This document shows, one piece after another, positions 49,647 through 62,509 of a stretch of DNA of 64,000 nt. The stretch spans positions 116,973-180,972 of the forward strand of contig NZ_JAYKTS010000006.1 in NCBI RefSeq assembly GCF_037024155.1. The letters are read 5' to 3'. A program made the position numbers and the translations under genes. Under the pieces are notes generated by a model. The model searched no databases, had not been told where the DNA came from, and worked only from the letters and a program-made list of their open reading frames with translations. Position 1 is the stretch's first letter. The number at the start of each line of letters is the position of its first letter. This DNA is from Bacillus sp. 2205SS5-2 (GTDB lineage Bacteria > Bacillota > Bacilli > Bacillales > Bacillaceae_K).

Positions 49647-50156
49647 ATGGATAGGGAGGAGAAAATTTCGGAGTGGTTTCACTTATACAGTGATGACGTC
49701 TATCATTTCCTGTTATATCGAATGGGAACTACTGAGGTGGAGGACTTAGTACAGGAGGTATTTATTAAGGCAATAAAAGGGATAGATTATTTTAATGGTA
49801 ATTCTAGTCCGAAAACATGGCTCTTCACCATAGCGCGAAATGTAGCGGTAGATGAAATGAGAAAAAGAAAATGGAAGAAGTGGACTTCTTTCGATTCTAT
49901 TCAGGAGCCAAGTGATACTAACACTCCAGAAACAATATGGAGCAAAAATGAGAGTCAAAATGAAATCTATCAGGCTATCATTTCTTTGAAACCGACGTAT
50001 CGAGATGTGGTGATTTTACGCGGAATTAAGGATTTATCCGTCTCTGAAACGGCTTCAGTTCTCAAATGGAACGAAAATAAGGTAAGAATAACGTATCATC
50101 GAGCAAAGATTTTATTAAGGAAGGAATTAGGAGGTAGAGAAGATGAAGCATATTGA
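49647..50156 (+). CDS. ECF RNA polymerase sigma factor
   Basis: 169 residues. Region 2 (SDDVYHFLLYRMGTTEVEDLVQEVFIKAIKGI ... PKTWLFTIARNVAVDEMRKRK) and region 4 (LKPTYRDVVILRGIKDLSVSETASVLKWNENKVRITYHRAKILLRKEL) are complete, with no region 3. GAGGAGAATGGT precedes the ATG. Overlaps the next gene by 14 bp. Likely held inactive by that membrane protein and released by envelope stress. Exact B. subtilis counterpart not determined. Confidence 0.92.
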   Translation: MDREEKISEWFHLYSDDVYHFLLYRMGTTEVEDLVQEVFIKAIKGIDYFNGNSSPKTWLFTIARNVAVDEMRKRKWKKWTSFDSIQEPSDTNTPETIWSKNESQNEIYQAIISLKPTYRDVVILRGIKDLSVSETASVLKWNENKVRITYHRAKILLRKELGGREDEAY

Positions 50157-50721
50157 GAAACACAATGATGAGATTGACGCTCGTTTAAAATCGTTGCCAT
50201 TGCAAAGTCTCAGTACAGAAAAGAAACAGCTTATGGATGCACAATTACAAAATACTGTAGTTTCCTATGATGGATTGAGTTTGAAGAAAAGGCTTGTAAG
50301 AAGATTTGCTTTCTCTTTATTAAGCTTAATCCTGTTATCCTTTCTTTTGTTTGCCGTCTATGCGTCGTTTTATCATTTGAGTATATTTAAAGAAGGAAAC
50401 GAACAAATTTTCTTGGTCAAAAGAAATGTTCCAAACATTGATAAAGGAGAAATCGTGAAAATCATTGATACTCCACATGAACGTACTTTGGTTCAGGATA
50501 TTCTTGAAAGACAACGCTGGTCTAATAATAATGGGTTAGTTATCGGAATGGATTTTATCATGAATGAATATGAAATCTCTATCCATCAAAATCAGACTTT
50601 GTCGATTTATCGATATCAAGCAAGTCAAGAAAAAGTAGCCAGATTGTACGGGGAGGAGGCACGACAGTTCTATTACTTGATTACAGGAGGGGCATTGGAA
50701 GCGGAAGTTGGATTGTATTAA
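50143..50721 (+). CDS. Putative membrane anti-sigma factor
   Basis: 192 residues. Cytoplasmic N-terminus ~1-55 (HNDEIDARLKSLPLQSLSTEKKQLMDAQL), one membrane helix ~58-80 (FAFSLLSLILLSFLLFAVYASF), extracytoplasmic domain ~85-192. The overlap with the ECF gene and this topology support an anti-sigma role, although no ZAS zinc motif (HxxxCxxC) is present. The outer domain probably senses the signal. Confidence 0.75.
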   Translation: MKHIEKHNDEIDARLKSLPLQSLSTEKKQLMDAQLQNTVVSYDGLSLKKRLVRRFAFSLLSLILLSFLLFAVYASFYHLSIFKEGNEQIFLVKRNVPNIDKGEIVKIIDTPHERTLVQDILERQRWSNNNGLVIGMDFIMNEYEISIHQNQTLSIYRYQASQEKVARLYGEEARQFYYLITGGALEAEVGLY

Positions 50722-51558: not shown

Positions 51559-53229
51559 CTACTCAATATGGAATTGATCAACAATTGAACGTAATTCTTG
51601 AGCCATTGCGGTCAACGTTTGGGTGGAAGAGCTGATTTGTTCCATAGAAGAAGTCATTTCTTCTTGACTTGCTGACACTTGAACAGTAGAGGCTGCCGTT
51701 TCCCTCACCATTTGGGCCATGCCTTGTGTGTGCCGAGCGACTGTTTCAGATTCTGAGGCAATTTGGTCAATAGAGAAAAGGATAGTCTTAAAATTATCTG
51801 TGAATAAAGTGAATACCTTTGAAATATTGGTGAATGTCTCGGCTGTTTGATGGACAACATTTAAGCCACGATCAACGGCATGTGAAGACGAGTTAACCGA
51901 AGAGCTGACAGTGCTTATTTCATTCGTAACGGTATGAAGGATGCTTGCGATTTCACCAGAAGAATTTTTGGCTTGCTCGGCTAATCGGCGGACTTCATCA
52001 GCCACGACAGCAAATCCCTTCCCATGCTCTCCTGCACGAGCAGCCTCGATTGCTGCGTTTAGTGCGAGAAGATTCGTTTGTTCAGAAATTTCTTCAATTT
52101 GACGTGTGACAACCGCAATATTTTGTGAGTGATGTTCTAGGTTGTCCATTATCTTTTCTGTATCTTTTATGGTGGTTGGTATACTATACATTTCTGTTGA
52201 CACTTGTTGGACGGATTGATGTCCACTCTCGACTTGTTGCTTCGATTCAATGGAATAGGAATTTGTTTCATTGATCTTCTCTTTTATTTGCTGGATTGTT
52301 TCGTTAGTCGATAGAATCGTTGAATGATTTGCGTCTGAAAGCTTTGTTTGTGCTTCTGCACTTGAAGAAATATCTTGAATGTTAACCATGATATTGTCAG
52401 CGACTACTGTATTTTCTTCAGCACTTGCCATCAGCTCTTCTGACGATTGTAATAGTTTATCAGAGGAATTTTGGATGGTTTTTGTAATGATATGGAAATG
52501 ACTAGTCATTTCATTAAAAATTATTTTCATTTGCCCGATTTCGTCATTTGAGTGAACCGGAAGCCAGACCGTTAAATCCCCTTCTTTAAAACGATTCATT
52601 CCGGACGTTAGCTGATTAAACGGTCTCAAGATATAGTAGGTAACGGGAATGATGATAATGAATGTTAGGATAACTACAATAATGGTTATAAGTATTAGCG
52701 TTTTGAAAATATTCGTAGCAGGCTGCATAATATCGTGTAGGTAACTCCCCACTCCTAGAACCCAACCGTTCGGAAGCTCCTTGAAGGCAATCACCTTCTT
52801 GCCGCCATCCCAATCATATTCAATAAATCCTGTCTTCTTAGTTACCATCTCTTCAACAAAGCTGTGTTGAATTAAACTGGTTCCGATTGTATCAGGATTA
52901 GGGTGATGAATAACATTTCCGGCTTCATCTAATATAAATGCATATCCAGTCATCCCATTTGGTTCGTAGTATTTTTCTTTTATGCCGCTAACGAGCTTTG
53001 CGATAGTGGTTTGATTTTCATTGCCTGAATTTATCGTTTCAGTGTAATTGGATAGGGTGTCTGCTTGTAAGCCCACCATATAGTTTAGGTCTGTAAATGT
53101 TAAGTCCTTTATGCCGCCATAGGTTTGTTTGTAGCTAATCCAGGTCGTGATGATAAGCGGAATGACGGTAAAAAATAAAACTAGTAAAATGATCTTTCTT
53201 CTAAATTTTAAATTCATAAAAAATTTCAT
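51559..53229 (-). CDS. Methyl-accepting chemotaxis protein with Cache sensor
   Basis: 556 residues from ATG 53229 (GGTGG upstream, weak). Membrane helix ~12-34; extracellular Cache-type sensor ~40-180 ([27 protein letters not shown] and [23 protein letters not shown]); second helix ~185-210; HAMP; cytoplasmic signalling domain with the hairpin tip [41 protein letters not shown]. Couples to CheA/CheW; ligand unknown. No terminal CheR-binding pentapeptide. Confidence 0.92.
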
Positions 53230-53604
53230 GCGGACCACCAATAAAATAGAAAAAAATGCCTATAGGAATGAAGGCAACACAGTAAATGTGAAGCAGCTGG
53301 CTGGCGTTCCAATTAGAGTAGCCCCTATAGCTTTGCGTCCCAACCTTTCGATTGGTTTGCCCTTAAAATGTAAATGTAGGGGTATTTTAACATATAAAAT
53401 TTTTTTGCCTGATTATTAGAATATTCTTTTTGTTTGATTCAAGCTATATGTGTCTATTTGCTAAAACCATGTAAGTGAAAAGATAGAATTTCCACGATAT
53501 AACGCGAAATTTTTGTTTTTTTATAAAAAATTCTGAACATCTGCCTGAATATCAGCTAAAATAAAGATAACATCAATATCGCTGGAGAATTGGGGGAGTT
53601 TAAG
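53230..53604. other. Divergent region between two chemoreceptor genes
   Basis: Plus strand GTCCCAACCTTTCGATTGG and AT-rich sequence; I see no certain promoter for either gene. GGGGGAG at 53592 is the ribosome site of the next gene. Confidence 0.35.
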
Positions 53605-55353
53605 GTGAAGAAATTCAAAAAGCTTCGAATCAACATGAGCATAAGGAAGAAAATTATAACGGGATTTATTATTATTTTATTTTTAATGCTAGTCGGAAAT
53701 GCTTTCAATCTTATGCAAATGAATCGAGTGAGTACGTCGGTCAATTCAATGACGGAAAATGAATTTCCTGCAATTGAATCAGTCCTAGAAATTAAGGGGG
53801 CGCATGAATTAACCTATGGTATTTTACTTGAATATACAAATGCATTACGAGCCAATCATAATGTAGATATGAAGAAATTTTCAGGACAATTAGAAGAAAA
53901 TAAGAAGCGTTTTGATGAGTTATATGATCATTATCAACAATATATTGATAATGAGAAAGAACAGCAATTATTTTCTAATCTTACCGCGCATCGAGATAAG
54001 TCGATTACAATTGTAGATCAGGTTCTTAACCAAGGGGAATATAACATGATTACGATTAATCGCTTACAACAAGAAGCGCAAATCACCATCACGAGCATTG
54101 AAGCAAATATCGCCAAAATTGTTGAAATCAATGAAAACTCAATCGTTTCTTCAAAGGAAGCAGTTTCAACAAGTTTTCAACAAGCGAGAACCAATACGAT
54201 GTTCTTTATGGTTTTAGCCACCATAGCTGGAATTGTTATTGTCATTATCATGACAAGACTCATTGCTACGCCGATTAGAAGAGTGACTAGAGTATTGAAG
54301 GAAGTAGCTGCTGGAAATTTGGCAGTGGATAAAATAAATATTAAAAATCGTGACGAAATTGGAGAGATGGTGACCTCCTTAAATCGAATGGTTGAAGATT
54401 TAAATGGAACCATTTCGACGGTTCGTTCAGCTACTCACCAAGTGGCAGCTTCAGGAGAAGAATTTAATGCGAGTGCGGATCAAACCGTGAAAGCTACCGA
54501 TCATCTGTCAGCATTAGCTCAAAATTCAGCTGCAGGAGCCGAGCAACAGTTACAAAGCATCAATGATGTCTCGGTTGCAGTGAATCAATTGTCAACAGGT
54601 ATCAATGAGATCGCTTCAAAAGCTTCTGAGATGTCTCAGCGTACTGAAGAATCGATACGATCTACTCAAAAAGGCTCAGCTAATGTTGAAAATGTAGTAA
54701 AGCAAATGAATTTAATTTCAAAAAATGTCGATGACACGTCACAAATCATCGAGATATTAGGTGTGAAGTCTTCGGAGATTGGGAGTATAACAGAGGTCAT
54801 TACAACCATTGCGGATCAAACGAATTTGCTCGCCCTAAATGCAGCGATTGAAGCGGCGAGAGCAGGGGAGCATGGGAAAGGTTTTGCCGTTGTTGCGGAT
54901 GAGGTAAGAAAATTAGCAGAAGGTTCACGTAATGCAGCGGAAAAGATCACAAATATGATTGAAAATATTCAAGCTGAGACGAAAAAGGCCATTTTGTCCA
55001 TGAATGCTGGGACAGAACAGGTGGAACACGGTATTACTTTTTCAAAACAAGTAGATCAGGCTTTTGCACTTATCGATCATTCCATCACAGATGTTTCAAC
55101 AAGAGTAGAGGAGGTATCTGCAGCCGTTTTGCAAATGACAATGGTAAGCGAGCATATTGTTGATTCAATTAATAATGTGAAAGAAATAGCTGAGACAAGC
55201 GTTCAAGCGAGTCAAGAAAGCTCGGCCGGAAGTCAAGAACAGCTTGCGGCTATGGAAGAAATTTCTTCATCTGCACATTCTTTATCTGATTTAGCTGAAG
55301 AGTTGCAACAAACGATTGATGTTTTTCAGATGAGACAAAAAACTCAGCATTAA
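53605..55353 (+). CDS. Methyl-accepting chemotaxis protein with four-helix-bundle sensor
   Basis: 582 residues from GTG 53605, seven bases after GGGGGAG; a TTG five codons earlier lies within the ribosome site. Basic N-terminus, helix ~16-38 ([19 protein letters not shown]), helical 4HB-type outer domain ~40-195, second helix ~200-222, HAMP ([24 protein letters not shown]) and signalling tip [43 protein letters not shown]. Divergent from the other receptor. Confidence 0.92.
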
Positions 55354-57256: not shown

Positions 57257-57470
57257 AACAAGCTCCTTATTACTAATTTCTCTTAAATCTATTATGCCAC
57301 CCTTTATTAATTTCCATCAAAGTGTATATTAATGACTTTTTTTAGGGATAAATAATGTTGATTAAATTGACTATATATGAGTCTAGTTTAATTTTGTTCA
57401 TTTTCTTCTATCATTTGGAATCGGTTCACGCTATGATTACTAATAGGGAATTTTAGTAGGAGAGATACAA
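57257..57470. other. Divergent region before the fusion regulator
   Basis: 214 bp. TAGTAGGAGAGA is the ribosome site of the next gene. No certain promoter or operator. Confidence 0.35.
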
Positions 57471-59045
57471 ATGCCGATTACGTTATTAGATAATAATCGT
57501 CCAATTTATTATGACTATCACCCTTGTGAAAATAAGGATGCTGAGACGATTTTACTTGTACATGGTTTAGGGTTGGATATGAATATTTGGACATCAACAG
57601 TTAAATTACTTCAACCGTATTTTCATGTTCTTCGATATAATCTCCCAGGGCATGGATCGAATCAAAAAGACTATCGTTTGACCAAATGGACCTGGGAGTT
57701 TTTGAGTAGAGAGCTTGAAAGTATTCTCGATGAACTTCATATTTCAATGATTCATTTTGTTGGATACGGTGGAGGTGGGAATTTTGGTCTAGAGTTAGCT
57801 TCGGCGGGAAAGCCTTATCTGAAATCACTAGTTTTAATTTCAACGCCTATATTCTATCCGCAAGAACTCGGAGAGAAAGAGCTCTCGAGGCGGATGAAGA
57901 TGTTCATGAAAGAGAAAAATGATTTAGTAGATATTTTAGTGAATAGTTTATTTTATTATAAAGATGAGAAAAAAATTTCAAATGTTAAGAATATGTACGA
58001 GACAGTGAATGAAGATGCATATATAAAATTTTACAAATTATGCGGTGAAAGTGTTCTTAACTACACCGCAAAAACATTTAACTCAATCTCGGTTCCAATC
58101 TGTAATATTGTCGGAGAATATGACCCAATCTACCCACCAAAACTTCATCTATTGGATATGAAATATTTAAATAAGGACCGTTTTCTAATCGTTCCCAATT
58201 CTTCAAATGCCATTATGATGGATCAGGCAGACCTTCTTGCTCATTGGGTTCGTGACTTTGTAGAAAAGGTGATTGGTGAAAACAATATACAGCCTCCGAA
58301 AACTGTATTTGGAGAAAAATTAGCGGATGATTTACAATTTATCCTTGAAGCCGCTGTTCACCAACTAATGAGCAAAAAATTGATTGAGGTTTCCGTCGTG
58401 TCTCCGTTTGACGTGAAAATTGATGGGAAATCTCTAAATGGTAAATGGAATCAGCGAAAAGCAAAGCAGTTGTTTAGTTATATTGCTATCCATAATAATG
58501 TGACGAGAGAGCAACTATTTGATACATTCTGGCCAGATCTAGAATTAAATAAAGCTAGAAATCAGCTTCGAGTTTCGCTGAATCATATCAAATCGTTGAT
58601 AGAAGAACATACCGGAGAAGAAATAGATAATTATTTATTAATTGAACGAGAGGGAGTCTCTTTAGTTGTCCGGACAAAAGTCGATTATTTAGAATGGTTA
58701 GAATGGTTTAGAAAAGTAGGAACTTACGATCATATTGAACAACATGTTCATGCCATTATTGACTTAATAAGCAGCTTACCTGATCCGTTGTTTCCTAGCT
58801 TTTACGATGAGTGGATGTTGGAAGCGCGATCATCGTTTGAATCAAAAATAGTTGAAATTTGTGAAGAATTATTGGATTTTGATATTACACCAGAGCAATC
58901 TATCGATATATTAAAGCTGCTAATAAAATTGCATCCTACTGAAGAATTGTATTATGATCAAATGATTTATCTACTTGTGTGTGAAAAAAAAGATAAGGAA
59001 ATTGAGTATTACGAAGAAAAGAGGGAATCAATTCAAAATAATTAG
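57471..59045 (+). CDS. Inactive alpha/beta-hydrolase domain fused to SARP/BTAD-like regulator
   Basis: 524 residues. Residues ~1-270 form an alpha/beta-hydrolase fold (LVHGLGLDMNIWTSTVKLL, YNLPGHGSNQ). The nucleophile elbow G-x-S-x-G reads G98-Y-G100-G-G, so the Ser is lost; D218 (GEYDPIYPP) remains, but the His position is N246 (NSSNAIMMDQ). Residues ~305-385 are a winged helix of the OmpR/AfsR type (SPFDVKIDGKSL, WNQRKAKQLFSYIAIHNNVTREQLFDTFWPDLELNKARNQLRVSLNHIKS), then a helical BTAD-like part to the end. I infer a transcription regulator that binds a small molecule in a dead hydrolase pocket. Confidence 0.85.
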   Translation: MPITLLDNNRPIYYDYHPCENKDAETILLVHGLGLDMNIWTSTVKLLQPYFHVLRYNLPGHGSNQKDYRLTKWTWEFLSRELESILDELHISMIHFVGYGGGGNFGLELASAGKPYLKSLVLISTPIFYPQELGEKELSRRMKMFMKEKNDLVDILVNSLFYYKDEKKISNVKNMYETVNEDAYIKFYKLCGESVLNYTAKTFNSISVPICNIVGEYDPIYPPKLHLLDMKYLNKDRFLIVPNSSNAIMMDQADLLAHWVRDFVEKVIGENNIQPPKTVFGEKLADDLQFILEAAVHQLMSKKLIEVSVVSPFDVKIDGKSLNGKWNQRKAKQLFSYIAIHNNVTREQLFDTFWPDLELNKARNQLRVSLNHIKSLIEEHTGEEIDNYLLIEREGVSLVVRTKVDYLEWLEWFRKVGTYDHIEQHVHAIIDLISSLPDPLFPSFYDEWMLEARSSFESKIVEICEELLDFDITPEQSIDILKLLIKLHPTEELYYDQMIYLLVCEKKDKEIEYYEEKRESIQNN

Positions 59046-59072
59046 TTCATCTCATATTTCGATAAAAAGCAA

Positions 59073-59110
59073 TACAAAACCCTCATTTTATTCGAAATGG
59101 GGGTTTTGTA
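59073..59110 (+). terminator. Terminator of the fusion regulator gene
   Basis: CAAAACCCTCATTT / AAATGGGGGTTTTG stem with a T-run. Confidence 0.75.
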
Positions 59111-59177
59111 ATGTTTGTGTAATGGTGTATATAGTATGTTGTTACTAGAGATTAAATGATTCGGTAAATAGGGGGTT

Positions 59178-59489
59178 TTGAAGTTGGGTAGAACAATATT
59201 GAGTGAAATGGAAAAAAATAAAGTAGTGAAATTAAAAGCGAGAGTGGATAGTGGTATATATAACGATGATGATTTTAAACAAATATTTGCTATTGTTAAA
59301 AATTATGATAGTGAAATAAATCTTGCTCAAACAAAAAAAATCTGTGAACTTGTCCAGTATTTATATGTTGTTCGCAAAGAAGATCGTGTTGCTAGTGTAT
59401 TAAACCAGTTTATCGATGAAGTACTTCCTAATCAAAATCTTGAAGGAAAAAAAACGTGTAGATCTTTTAGTTTTGTAATCGATCGATAA
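59178..59489 (+). CDS. Small helical protein downstream of the fusion regulator
   Basis: 103 codons from TTG 59178, with TAGGGGGT upstream; TTG 59184 is also possible and neither is ATG. Mostly helical and Lys-rich: ILSEMEKNKVVKLKARVDSG, DDFKQIFAIVKNYDSEINLAQTKKICELVQYLYVVRKEDRVASVLNQFIDEV. No membrane segment, no family recognised. Same strand as the fusion regulator, 130 bp away with a short hairpin between (AAAACCCTCATTT ... AAATGGGGGTTTT, a terminator). Confidence 0.5.
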   Translation: MKLGRTILSEMEKNKVVKLKARVDSGIYNDDDFKQIFAIVKNYDSEINLAQTKKICELVQYLYVVRKEDRVASVLNQFIDEVLPNQNLEGKKTCRSFSFVIDR

Positions 59490-61609: not shown

Positions 61610-62509
61610 ATGGAAAAACAAAAAATGAAGCCTTATCTAGCTCTGTGGATTGGGGTTATTGCTGTATCTACTTCAGCAATATTCGTTAAACTATCAACTG
61701 CTGAAGCGGGAGTTATTGCATTTTATCGGTTATTTTTCACAGTCATATTAATGTCCCCTTTATTTTGGTTGAAGTTTAGACAAGAATTGAAAAAGATTAC
61801 CAAAAGAGATTGGGTGTTTTCTATTGTATCCGGTATTTTTTTAGCGTTTCACTTTATACTTTGGTTTGAGTCGCTGAACTACACGTCAGTCGCAAGTTCG
61901 ACCGTGCTTGTCACATTGCAGCCACTATTTGCCTTTATTGGAACGTATATTTTTTTTAATGAGAAGTTAAGTGTAAAAGCCATATTAGCAGGTGGGCTAG
62001 CATTGTGTGGAAGTGTCCTGATTAGTTGGGGAGATTTTCGTATTAGTGGCTTAGCGTTATGGGGAGATATTCTTGCGTTAATGGCTTGTGCTCTAATAAC
62101 CGCCTATTTGTTATTTGGTCAAAATGTAAGAAGGCGTCTTTCTCTCGTCACCTATACATATGTTGTTTACAGTATCAGTAGTTTAGTGCTGTTTATATAT
62201 GTTTGGATTAAAGGTGAAAATTATATTTCTTTACCTAAGATAGAGTGGTTGTATTTTGTGCTCCTTGCTCTTATTCCGACTCTTTTAGGTCATACCTTGT
62301 TTAATTGGTCATTAAAATGGATTAGTACGTCCACCATTTCAATGGTCATTCTCATAGAGCCGATAGGTGCTTCACTCTTAGCATACCTACTATTGGGTGA
62401 GGTGGTAACGCCTTATCAGGTTATAGGTGGTGGGATTATTATGATTGGAATTTTCTTATTTCTACTTAATGAAAATAAGATGAAAAGAAAAAACGCATCA
62501 TCAGCATAA
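61610..62509 (+). CDS. EamA-family (drug/metabolite) transporter
   Basis: 299 residues with ten membrane helices in two EamA repeats (first half begins YLALWIGVIAVSTSAIFVKLSTAEAGVIAFYRLFFT, second WGDILALMACALITAYLLFG). Conserved end TISMVILIEPIGASLLAYLLLGEVVTPYQVIGGGIIMIGIF. Probably exports a small metabolite; substrate unknown. Short basic C-terminal tail. Confidence 0.9.
   Translation: MEKQKMKPYLALWIGVIAVSTSAIFVKLSTAEAGVIAFYRLFFTVILMSPLFWLKFRQELKKITKRDWVFSIVSGIFLAFHFILWFESLNYTSVASSTVLVTLQPLFAFIGTYIFFNEKLSVKAILAGGLALCGSVLISWGDFRISGLALWGDILALMACALITAYLLFGQNVRRRLSLVTYTYVVYSISSLVLFIYVWIKGENYISLPKIEWLYFVLLALIPTLLGHTLFNWSLKWISTSTISMVILIEPIGASLLAYLLLGEVVTPYQVIGGGIIMIGIFLFLLNENKMKRKNASSA

Follow-up and report, generated by a model that had tools for sequence, protein, structure and literature searches.

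An alpha/beta-hydrolase fold without catalytic serine and histidine, joined to a predicted SARP-type DNA-binding half: a likely one-component regulator family of Bacilli

We describe a gene of Bacillus sp. 2205SS5-2, located in a stretch of 64,000 nucleotides analysed as a whole (hereafter the window), whose product is likely a one-component regulator: binding of a small molecule in the pocket of a hydrolase-type domain that lacks the Ser and His of catalysis would switch a predicted SARP-type DNA-binding half. In the proposed mechanism, the hydrolase-fold pocket would bind its ligand instead of hydrolysing it, the ligand-induced change would be relayed through the linker helix (about residues 279-300), and the SARP half would activate transcription. 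A review of SARPs describes the BTAD as supposedly recruiting RNA polymerase (PMC10972967). The candidate ligand, small and hydrophobic or lactone-like, is simply the default for this fold. The features of the gene, which has a divergent gene upstream, are listed in Table 1. As proposed in an earlier reading made from the sequence only, the design is single-chain, one ORF of 524 aa carrying both halves.

Table 1. Features of the fusion gene and its 3' flank (window coordinates)
Feature	Coordinates	Strand	Basis
Hydrolase-fold/SARP fusion gene, 524 aa	57471..59045	+	ORF, ATG start
Alpha/beta-hydrolase-fold domain, residues 1-271	57471..58283	+	
Nucleophile elbow G98-Y-G-G-G102, with G100 at the place of the catalytic Ser	57762..57776	+	Alignment
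Asp218, sole triad residue retained	58122..58124	+	Alignment
Asn246, at the place of the catalytic His	58206..58208	+	Alignment
Linker including a helix, about 279-300	58284..58379	+	Predicted secondary structure; breakpoints in kinase fusion
Predicted OmpR/SARP-type winged helix, residues 304-404	58380..58682	+	Models, structure alignment, Trans_reg_C
Predicted BTAD-like helical repeats, residues 405-524	58683..59042	+	C-half model, structure alignment
Terminator-like hairpin 3' of the fusion gene, starting 28 bases past the stop	59073-59110	+	

The N-terminal half matches the Pfam family Abhydrolase_1 at residues 26-242 (E 1.5e-15). This half had been read as dead from the sequence, with Ser replaced by Gly100, His by Asn246 and only Asp218 kept, and alignment with 22 single-domain relatives (hand-picked among the best single-domain matches of the order and class genome searches) agrees: the window protein reads G-D-N, whereas Ser and His stand at these places in 22/22 relatives. 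Of the elements required of a catalytic hydrolase, the elbow nucleophile and the His are therefore absent and the acid is present. The hydrolase half has His at 17, 31, 52, 61, 90, 95, 226 and 258 and Cys at 19, 191 and 211; none of these falls within the elbow or the His loop, and no substitute for Ser or His is therefore visible in the sequence. Among four other hydrolases of the same genome, the triad is SDH in three and DDH in one. The closest solved enzymes include PcaD-type enol-lactonases and esterases (2xua, 4uhd, 7dq9); these possess a catalytic triad, which is broken in the window protein.

Foldseek and VIA searches with the whole protein returned, among the matches listed, hydrolases only, and the C-terminal half was therefore modelled separately. 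The whole-protein model has a pLDDT of 90.3; the C-terminal half alone reached a pLDDT of 96.8 and a pTM of 0.88, and displays a winged-helix pattern at about residues 304-404 followed by helices at 405-523. The winged helix, whose absence from residues 305-385 had been set as a refuting test, is present in the predicted structure. The model of this half aligns over its full length to EmbR (Mycobacterium tuberculosis) and AfsR (Streptomyces), which it resembles in having a winged helix and then BTAD helices. Model and alignment thus bear out the initial proposal of a winged helix of the AfsR/SARP type with a BTAD-like tail. At the sequence level, the C-terminal half of the window protein gave no Pfam match over cut-off, BTAD included; Trans_reg_C matched 20 of 41 family C-terminal halves at E<=1 (best 1.7e-5; window protein 0.099), and with the NCBIfam model of AfsR the half from locus L072 scored E 8.1e-6, under that model's cut-off. 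Compared by sequence with solved structures, a profile of the C-terminal half matched mostly TPR-like or unrelated proteins, with AfsR only at E 0.85. The newer Pfam entry PF27351.1 is precomputed, among 42 family proteins (see below), for the window protein only. SARPs bind repeated motifs, but no direct repeats that might serve as an operator were found in 57257-57480 or 59046-59180, and the aligned upstream regions of three loci share little similarity except for a stretch near the start.

Streptomyces SARPs are described as having an N-terminal DNA-binding domain, their further domains being NB-ARC, TPR, AAA and others (PMC10972967). The window protein differs in carrying a dead hydrolase N-terminal to its DNA-binding domain; this domain is C-terminal, in contrast to the classical Streptomyces layout, and the protein is therefore a regulator with a SARP-type output rather than a classical SARP. 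A profile of the C-terminal half alone (A2) served as a control for the profile A1, whose matches lean to dead hydrolases because it was built from family members. With 7 candidates scored per genome in the A2 search, the paralogue numbers are minimum values. All of the 40 best A2 rows (E<=1.6e-35) fell in genomes known from A1. Among the weaker matches listed, 12 were sampled: none has a hydrolase half, and all 12 have a BTAD over the Pfam cut-off, which links the C-terminal half to BTAD by sequence, though indirectly. Five of them, of about 370 aa, contain a receiver domain (Response_reg in 5/5); two, of about 1080 aa, match TPR and, weakly, an NTPase; the remaining five are of 531-633 aa, with N-termini that are TPR-like in three (weak to fair matches) and without assignment in two. 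As these relatives have receiver or TPR N-termini, the hydrolase sits where other proteins keep signal-input domains. A close likeness is with the REC-SARP response regulators (SAPR) of the same taxonomic order: the output half is related (A2 matches at E 2.2e-25 and weaker) and the order of input, winged helix and BTAD is alike, but the input is a receiver domain (5/5 scanned) where the window protein has a hydrolase fold.

How widespread is the fusion? A protein search recovered 42 proteins at E<=1e-5, the window's own included, among 8000 candidates scored; the named sources include Bacillus, Evansella, Ornithinibacillus, Brevibacillus and Paenibacillus. In a sample of genomes of the order, a member was present in 30/397 (the window's own counted; E<=1.2e-75), and the single-domain hydrolases were clearly set off from these matches, at 4e-47 and weaker. 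In a class sample, which overlaps the order sample, 13/398 genomes had a member (E<=2.1e-84), and beyond these 13, genome G603 carries the two halves on separate contigs. What had been thought unusual in a Bacillus is instead a family spread over several genera. An artefact of assembly or gene calling, affecting the fusion or the residues, is hardly credible: contig ends or a frame break do divide a few relatives (L083/L087, L067), but the window gene lies in a frame of 532 codons open without inner stops, and members recur in 30 genomes, with a broken one in G240 alone. The G240 copy (L067:6403-7957) is split into two ORFs, unlike its intact relatives L064 and L065. Paralogues lie side by side in G150 (three in a row), G226, G249, G333, G123 and G095, the order sample having been scored at 3 candidates per genome, which makes paralogue numbers lower bounds. 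G150 has three consecutive fusion genes (L052:5041-10133) and a fourth elsewhere (L051:6790-8292), and the four differ at the dead triad (Y-D-R, R-D-C, G-D-R and G-D-H).

We then compared the triad across 84 fusion rows, defined as >300 aa and <90% identity between rows; this set also counts P0021, a fragment of 322 aa, and, from the broken copy L067, its first ORF. P0018, P0041 and L087 (hydrolase <200 aa) and 8 rows at >=90% identity had been dropped before the count, and P0001 (the window's own) and P0007 are outside the alignment. A full set of Ser, Asp and His was found in 0/84 fusion rows versus 22/22 single-domain relatives. The combinations were GDN 27, SDN 14, GDH 8, GDS 5, GDF 5, GDY 4, ADN 3 and others 18, with SDH 0, and Asn occupies position 246 in 54% of rows; beyond the 84 rows, P0044 has G-D-N, and L150 and L151 have G-N-F. 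Whether Ser and His are always lost in relatives, as the sequence-only reading had asked, thus receives a divided answer: none of the 84 rows has a complete triad, but Ser is present in 16 and His in 8. Strict mutual exclusion of Ser and His was considered and set aside as not significant, about 1.5 joint rows being expected under independence and the independent gains being few. These counts also bear on the idea that the hydrolase domain is still catalytic by another route, its product or a covalent state being the signal. Some hydrolase-fold enzymes are described as using a D/E-His dyad without Ser (PMC11878206), and Asp and His are kept in 8/84 rows; however, the window protein lacks both the nucleophile and the His, Asn246 is the commoner state of the family, and no row has Ser and His together, which makes this route improbable.

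In the tree, the fusions stand apart from the single-domain proteins (100/98), 24 of 103 inner branches being weakly supported. By parsimony, the ancestor of the fusions had Gly100 and Asn246, and Ser and His were therefore likely regained singly; 13 changes were counted at residue 100 and 24 at residue 246. Asp218, the HG motif and scaffold positions are conserved in the family. Values of dN/dS lie between 0.04 and 0.31 in 12 computable pairs, and do not exceed 0.31 for the hydrolase half in 9 computable pairs, from which the window's hydrolase half is excluded as its synonymous sites are saturated. The distances of the two halves correlate (Mantel r 0.79, Spearman 0.54, 0/999 shuffles): the two halves diverged together. 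The conserved scaffold and Asp, the dN/dS values and this correlation disfavour decay of the hydrolase half. That this half is a decaying remnant, the SARP half alone being functional, would fit the loss of two catalytic residues and the split relative L067, but is very improbable given, in addition, that the half is retained in 84 rows at a mean pair identity of 27% and that hydrolase and linker are found on another output.

The same type of dead hydrolase is indeed joined to other outputs. L068 (P0043; Filobacillus milosensis by its NCBI name) encodes a protein of 366 aa in which a G-D-Y module precedes a LuxR-type HTH (GerE, E 1.1e-16); this fusion was found in one genome, and five SARP fusions form a group with it (100/100). 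The metagenomic proteins P0023, P0027 and P0028 combine an S-D-N module with SPOB_a and GHKL kinase domains and group with the SARP fusion P0011 (99/96). Residues 1-296 of P0023 are 63% identical to P0011, and residues 308-515 are 69% identical to P0048, a kinase with a different N-terminal half, in which hydrophobic segments are seen by eye and a Cache match lies under cut-off. The unit common to P0023 and P0011 is thus the hydrolase plus the linker helix, and in the tree the LuxR and GHKL fusions are nested among SARP fusions. P0045 and P0046, one of them named Paenibacillus glycanilyticus, are stand-alone dead modules of 298 aa with G-D-N. This swapping of outputs, SARP for a LuxR-type HTH or a GHKL kinase, as read from the sequences, is the strongest of the present evidence in support of a role of the dead hydrolase as a sensor module.

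A sensor could also respond to a protein. The dead hydrolase may be a protein-binding scaffold that senses a partner or mediates dimerisation without a small molecule, and triad-less hydrolase folds in DUF687 and DUF3530 have been proposed as scaffolds or non-enzymatic proteins (PMC11878206). The wide variation of residues 100 and 246 is consistent with this reading, which we nevertheless consider rather unlikely, since Asp218, the HG motif and scaffold positions are conserved and the module occurs on three outputs, as sensor domains do. We favour a small-molecule receptor. At the level of the family, the balance tips slightly towards Bacilli possessing hormone-type hydrolase-fold receptors, in which one dead module serves at least three outputs (SARP, LuxR-type HTH and histidine kinase), a counterpart of GID1 and D14 with its own DNA-binding or kinase half.

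Hydrolase folds associated with signalling offer several comparisons. RsbQ is a separate, active and catalytically complete hydrolase, whereas the window protein is a single chain with a broken triad. GID1, the plant gibberellin receptor, is a hydrolase fold turned into a receptor through loss of a catalytic residue (PMC3531792): it lost the His and keeps Ser and Asp, whereas the window protein lacks Ser too and has its own DNA-binding half. The GID1-like S-D-N pattern is that of 14 of the 84 fusion rows, the window protein being G-D-N instead. Among the strigolactone and karrikin receptors of the D14/DAD2/KAI2 type, the triad is present in DAD2 (PMC3531792), in contrast to the window protein.

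Neither one-component regulators nor hydrolase-fold receptors are new in themselves. Titles and opening parts of abstracts in the openly licensed literature yielded no description of a hydrolase-SARP fusion of Bacilli, or of a dead hydrolase over three outputs; the fusion architecture is visible in databases and, as far as we searched, undescribed. NCBI names for family proteins are mostly alpha/beta hydrolase, and family members may be mistaken for esterases, whereas JGI automatic names give both halves for some members. If the receptor reading is true, the alpha/beta-hydrolase fold would count among the sensory input domains of bacteria, its loss of catalysis would parallel that of plant hormone receptors, a set of orphan regulators would be opened to ligand screens, and the variants S-D-N, G-D-H and G-D-N over three outputs would form a natural series for the transition from enzyme to receptor.

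Finally, we considered the gene neighbourhood. Neighbours are common to close kin only, in the order fusion gene, 103-aa ORF and EamA transporter. The 103-aa ORF (59178-59489, TTG start), directly downstream of the fusion gene, has no match in Pfam or NCBIfam; like the place of the EamA-type transporter (61610-62509) near the fusion gene, it is kept in L037, L038 and L069, the last two being one genome. A polysaccharide cluster with Wzz and a BY-kinase (tyrosine kinase) lies near the fusion gene in 5/34 loci (L049, L053, L055, L057 and L061), with CpsB in 4/5 by BLAST grouping, the families having been checked on L055 and L061 only. This cluster was considered as a possible target of the regulator and not retained, since L053 and L055 hardly differ and part of the pattern may stem from old synteny. 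Elsewhere in the window, an ECF sigma factor gene overlaps an ORF of 192 aa without Pfam match, perhaps an anti-sigma factor (49647-50721), and two diverging methyl-accepting chemotaxis genes (51559-55353) differ in their sensor parts (Cache and 4HB); in L038 and L069, a relative of these chemotaxis genes adjoins the fusion gene.
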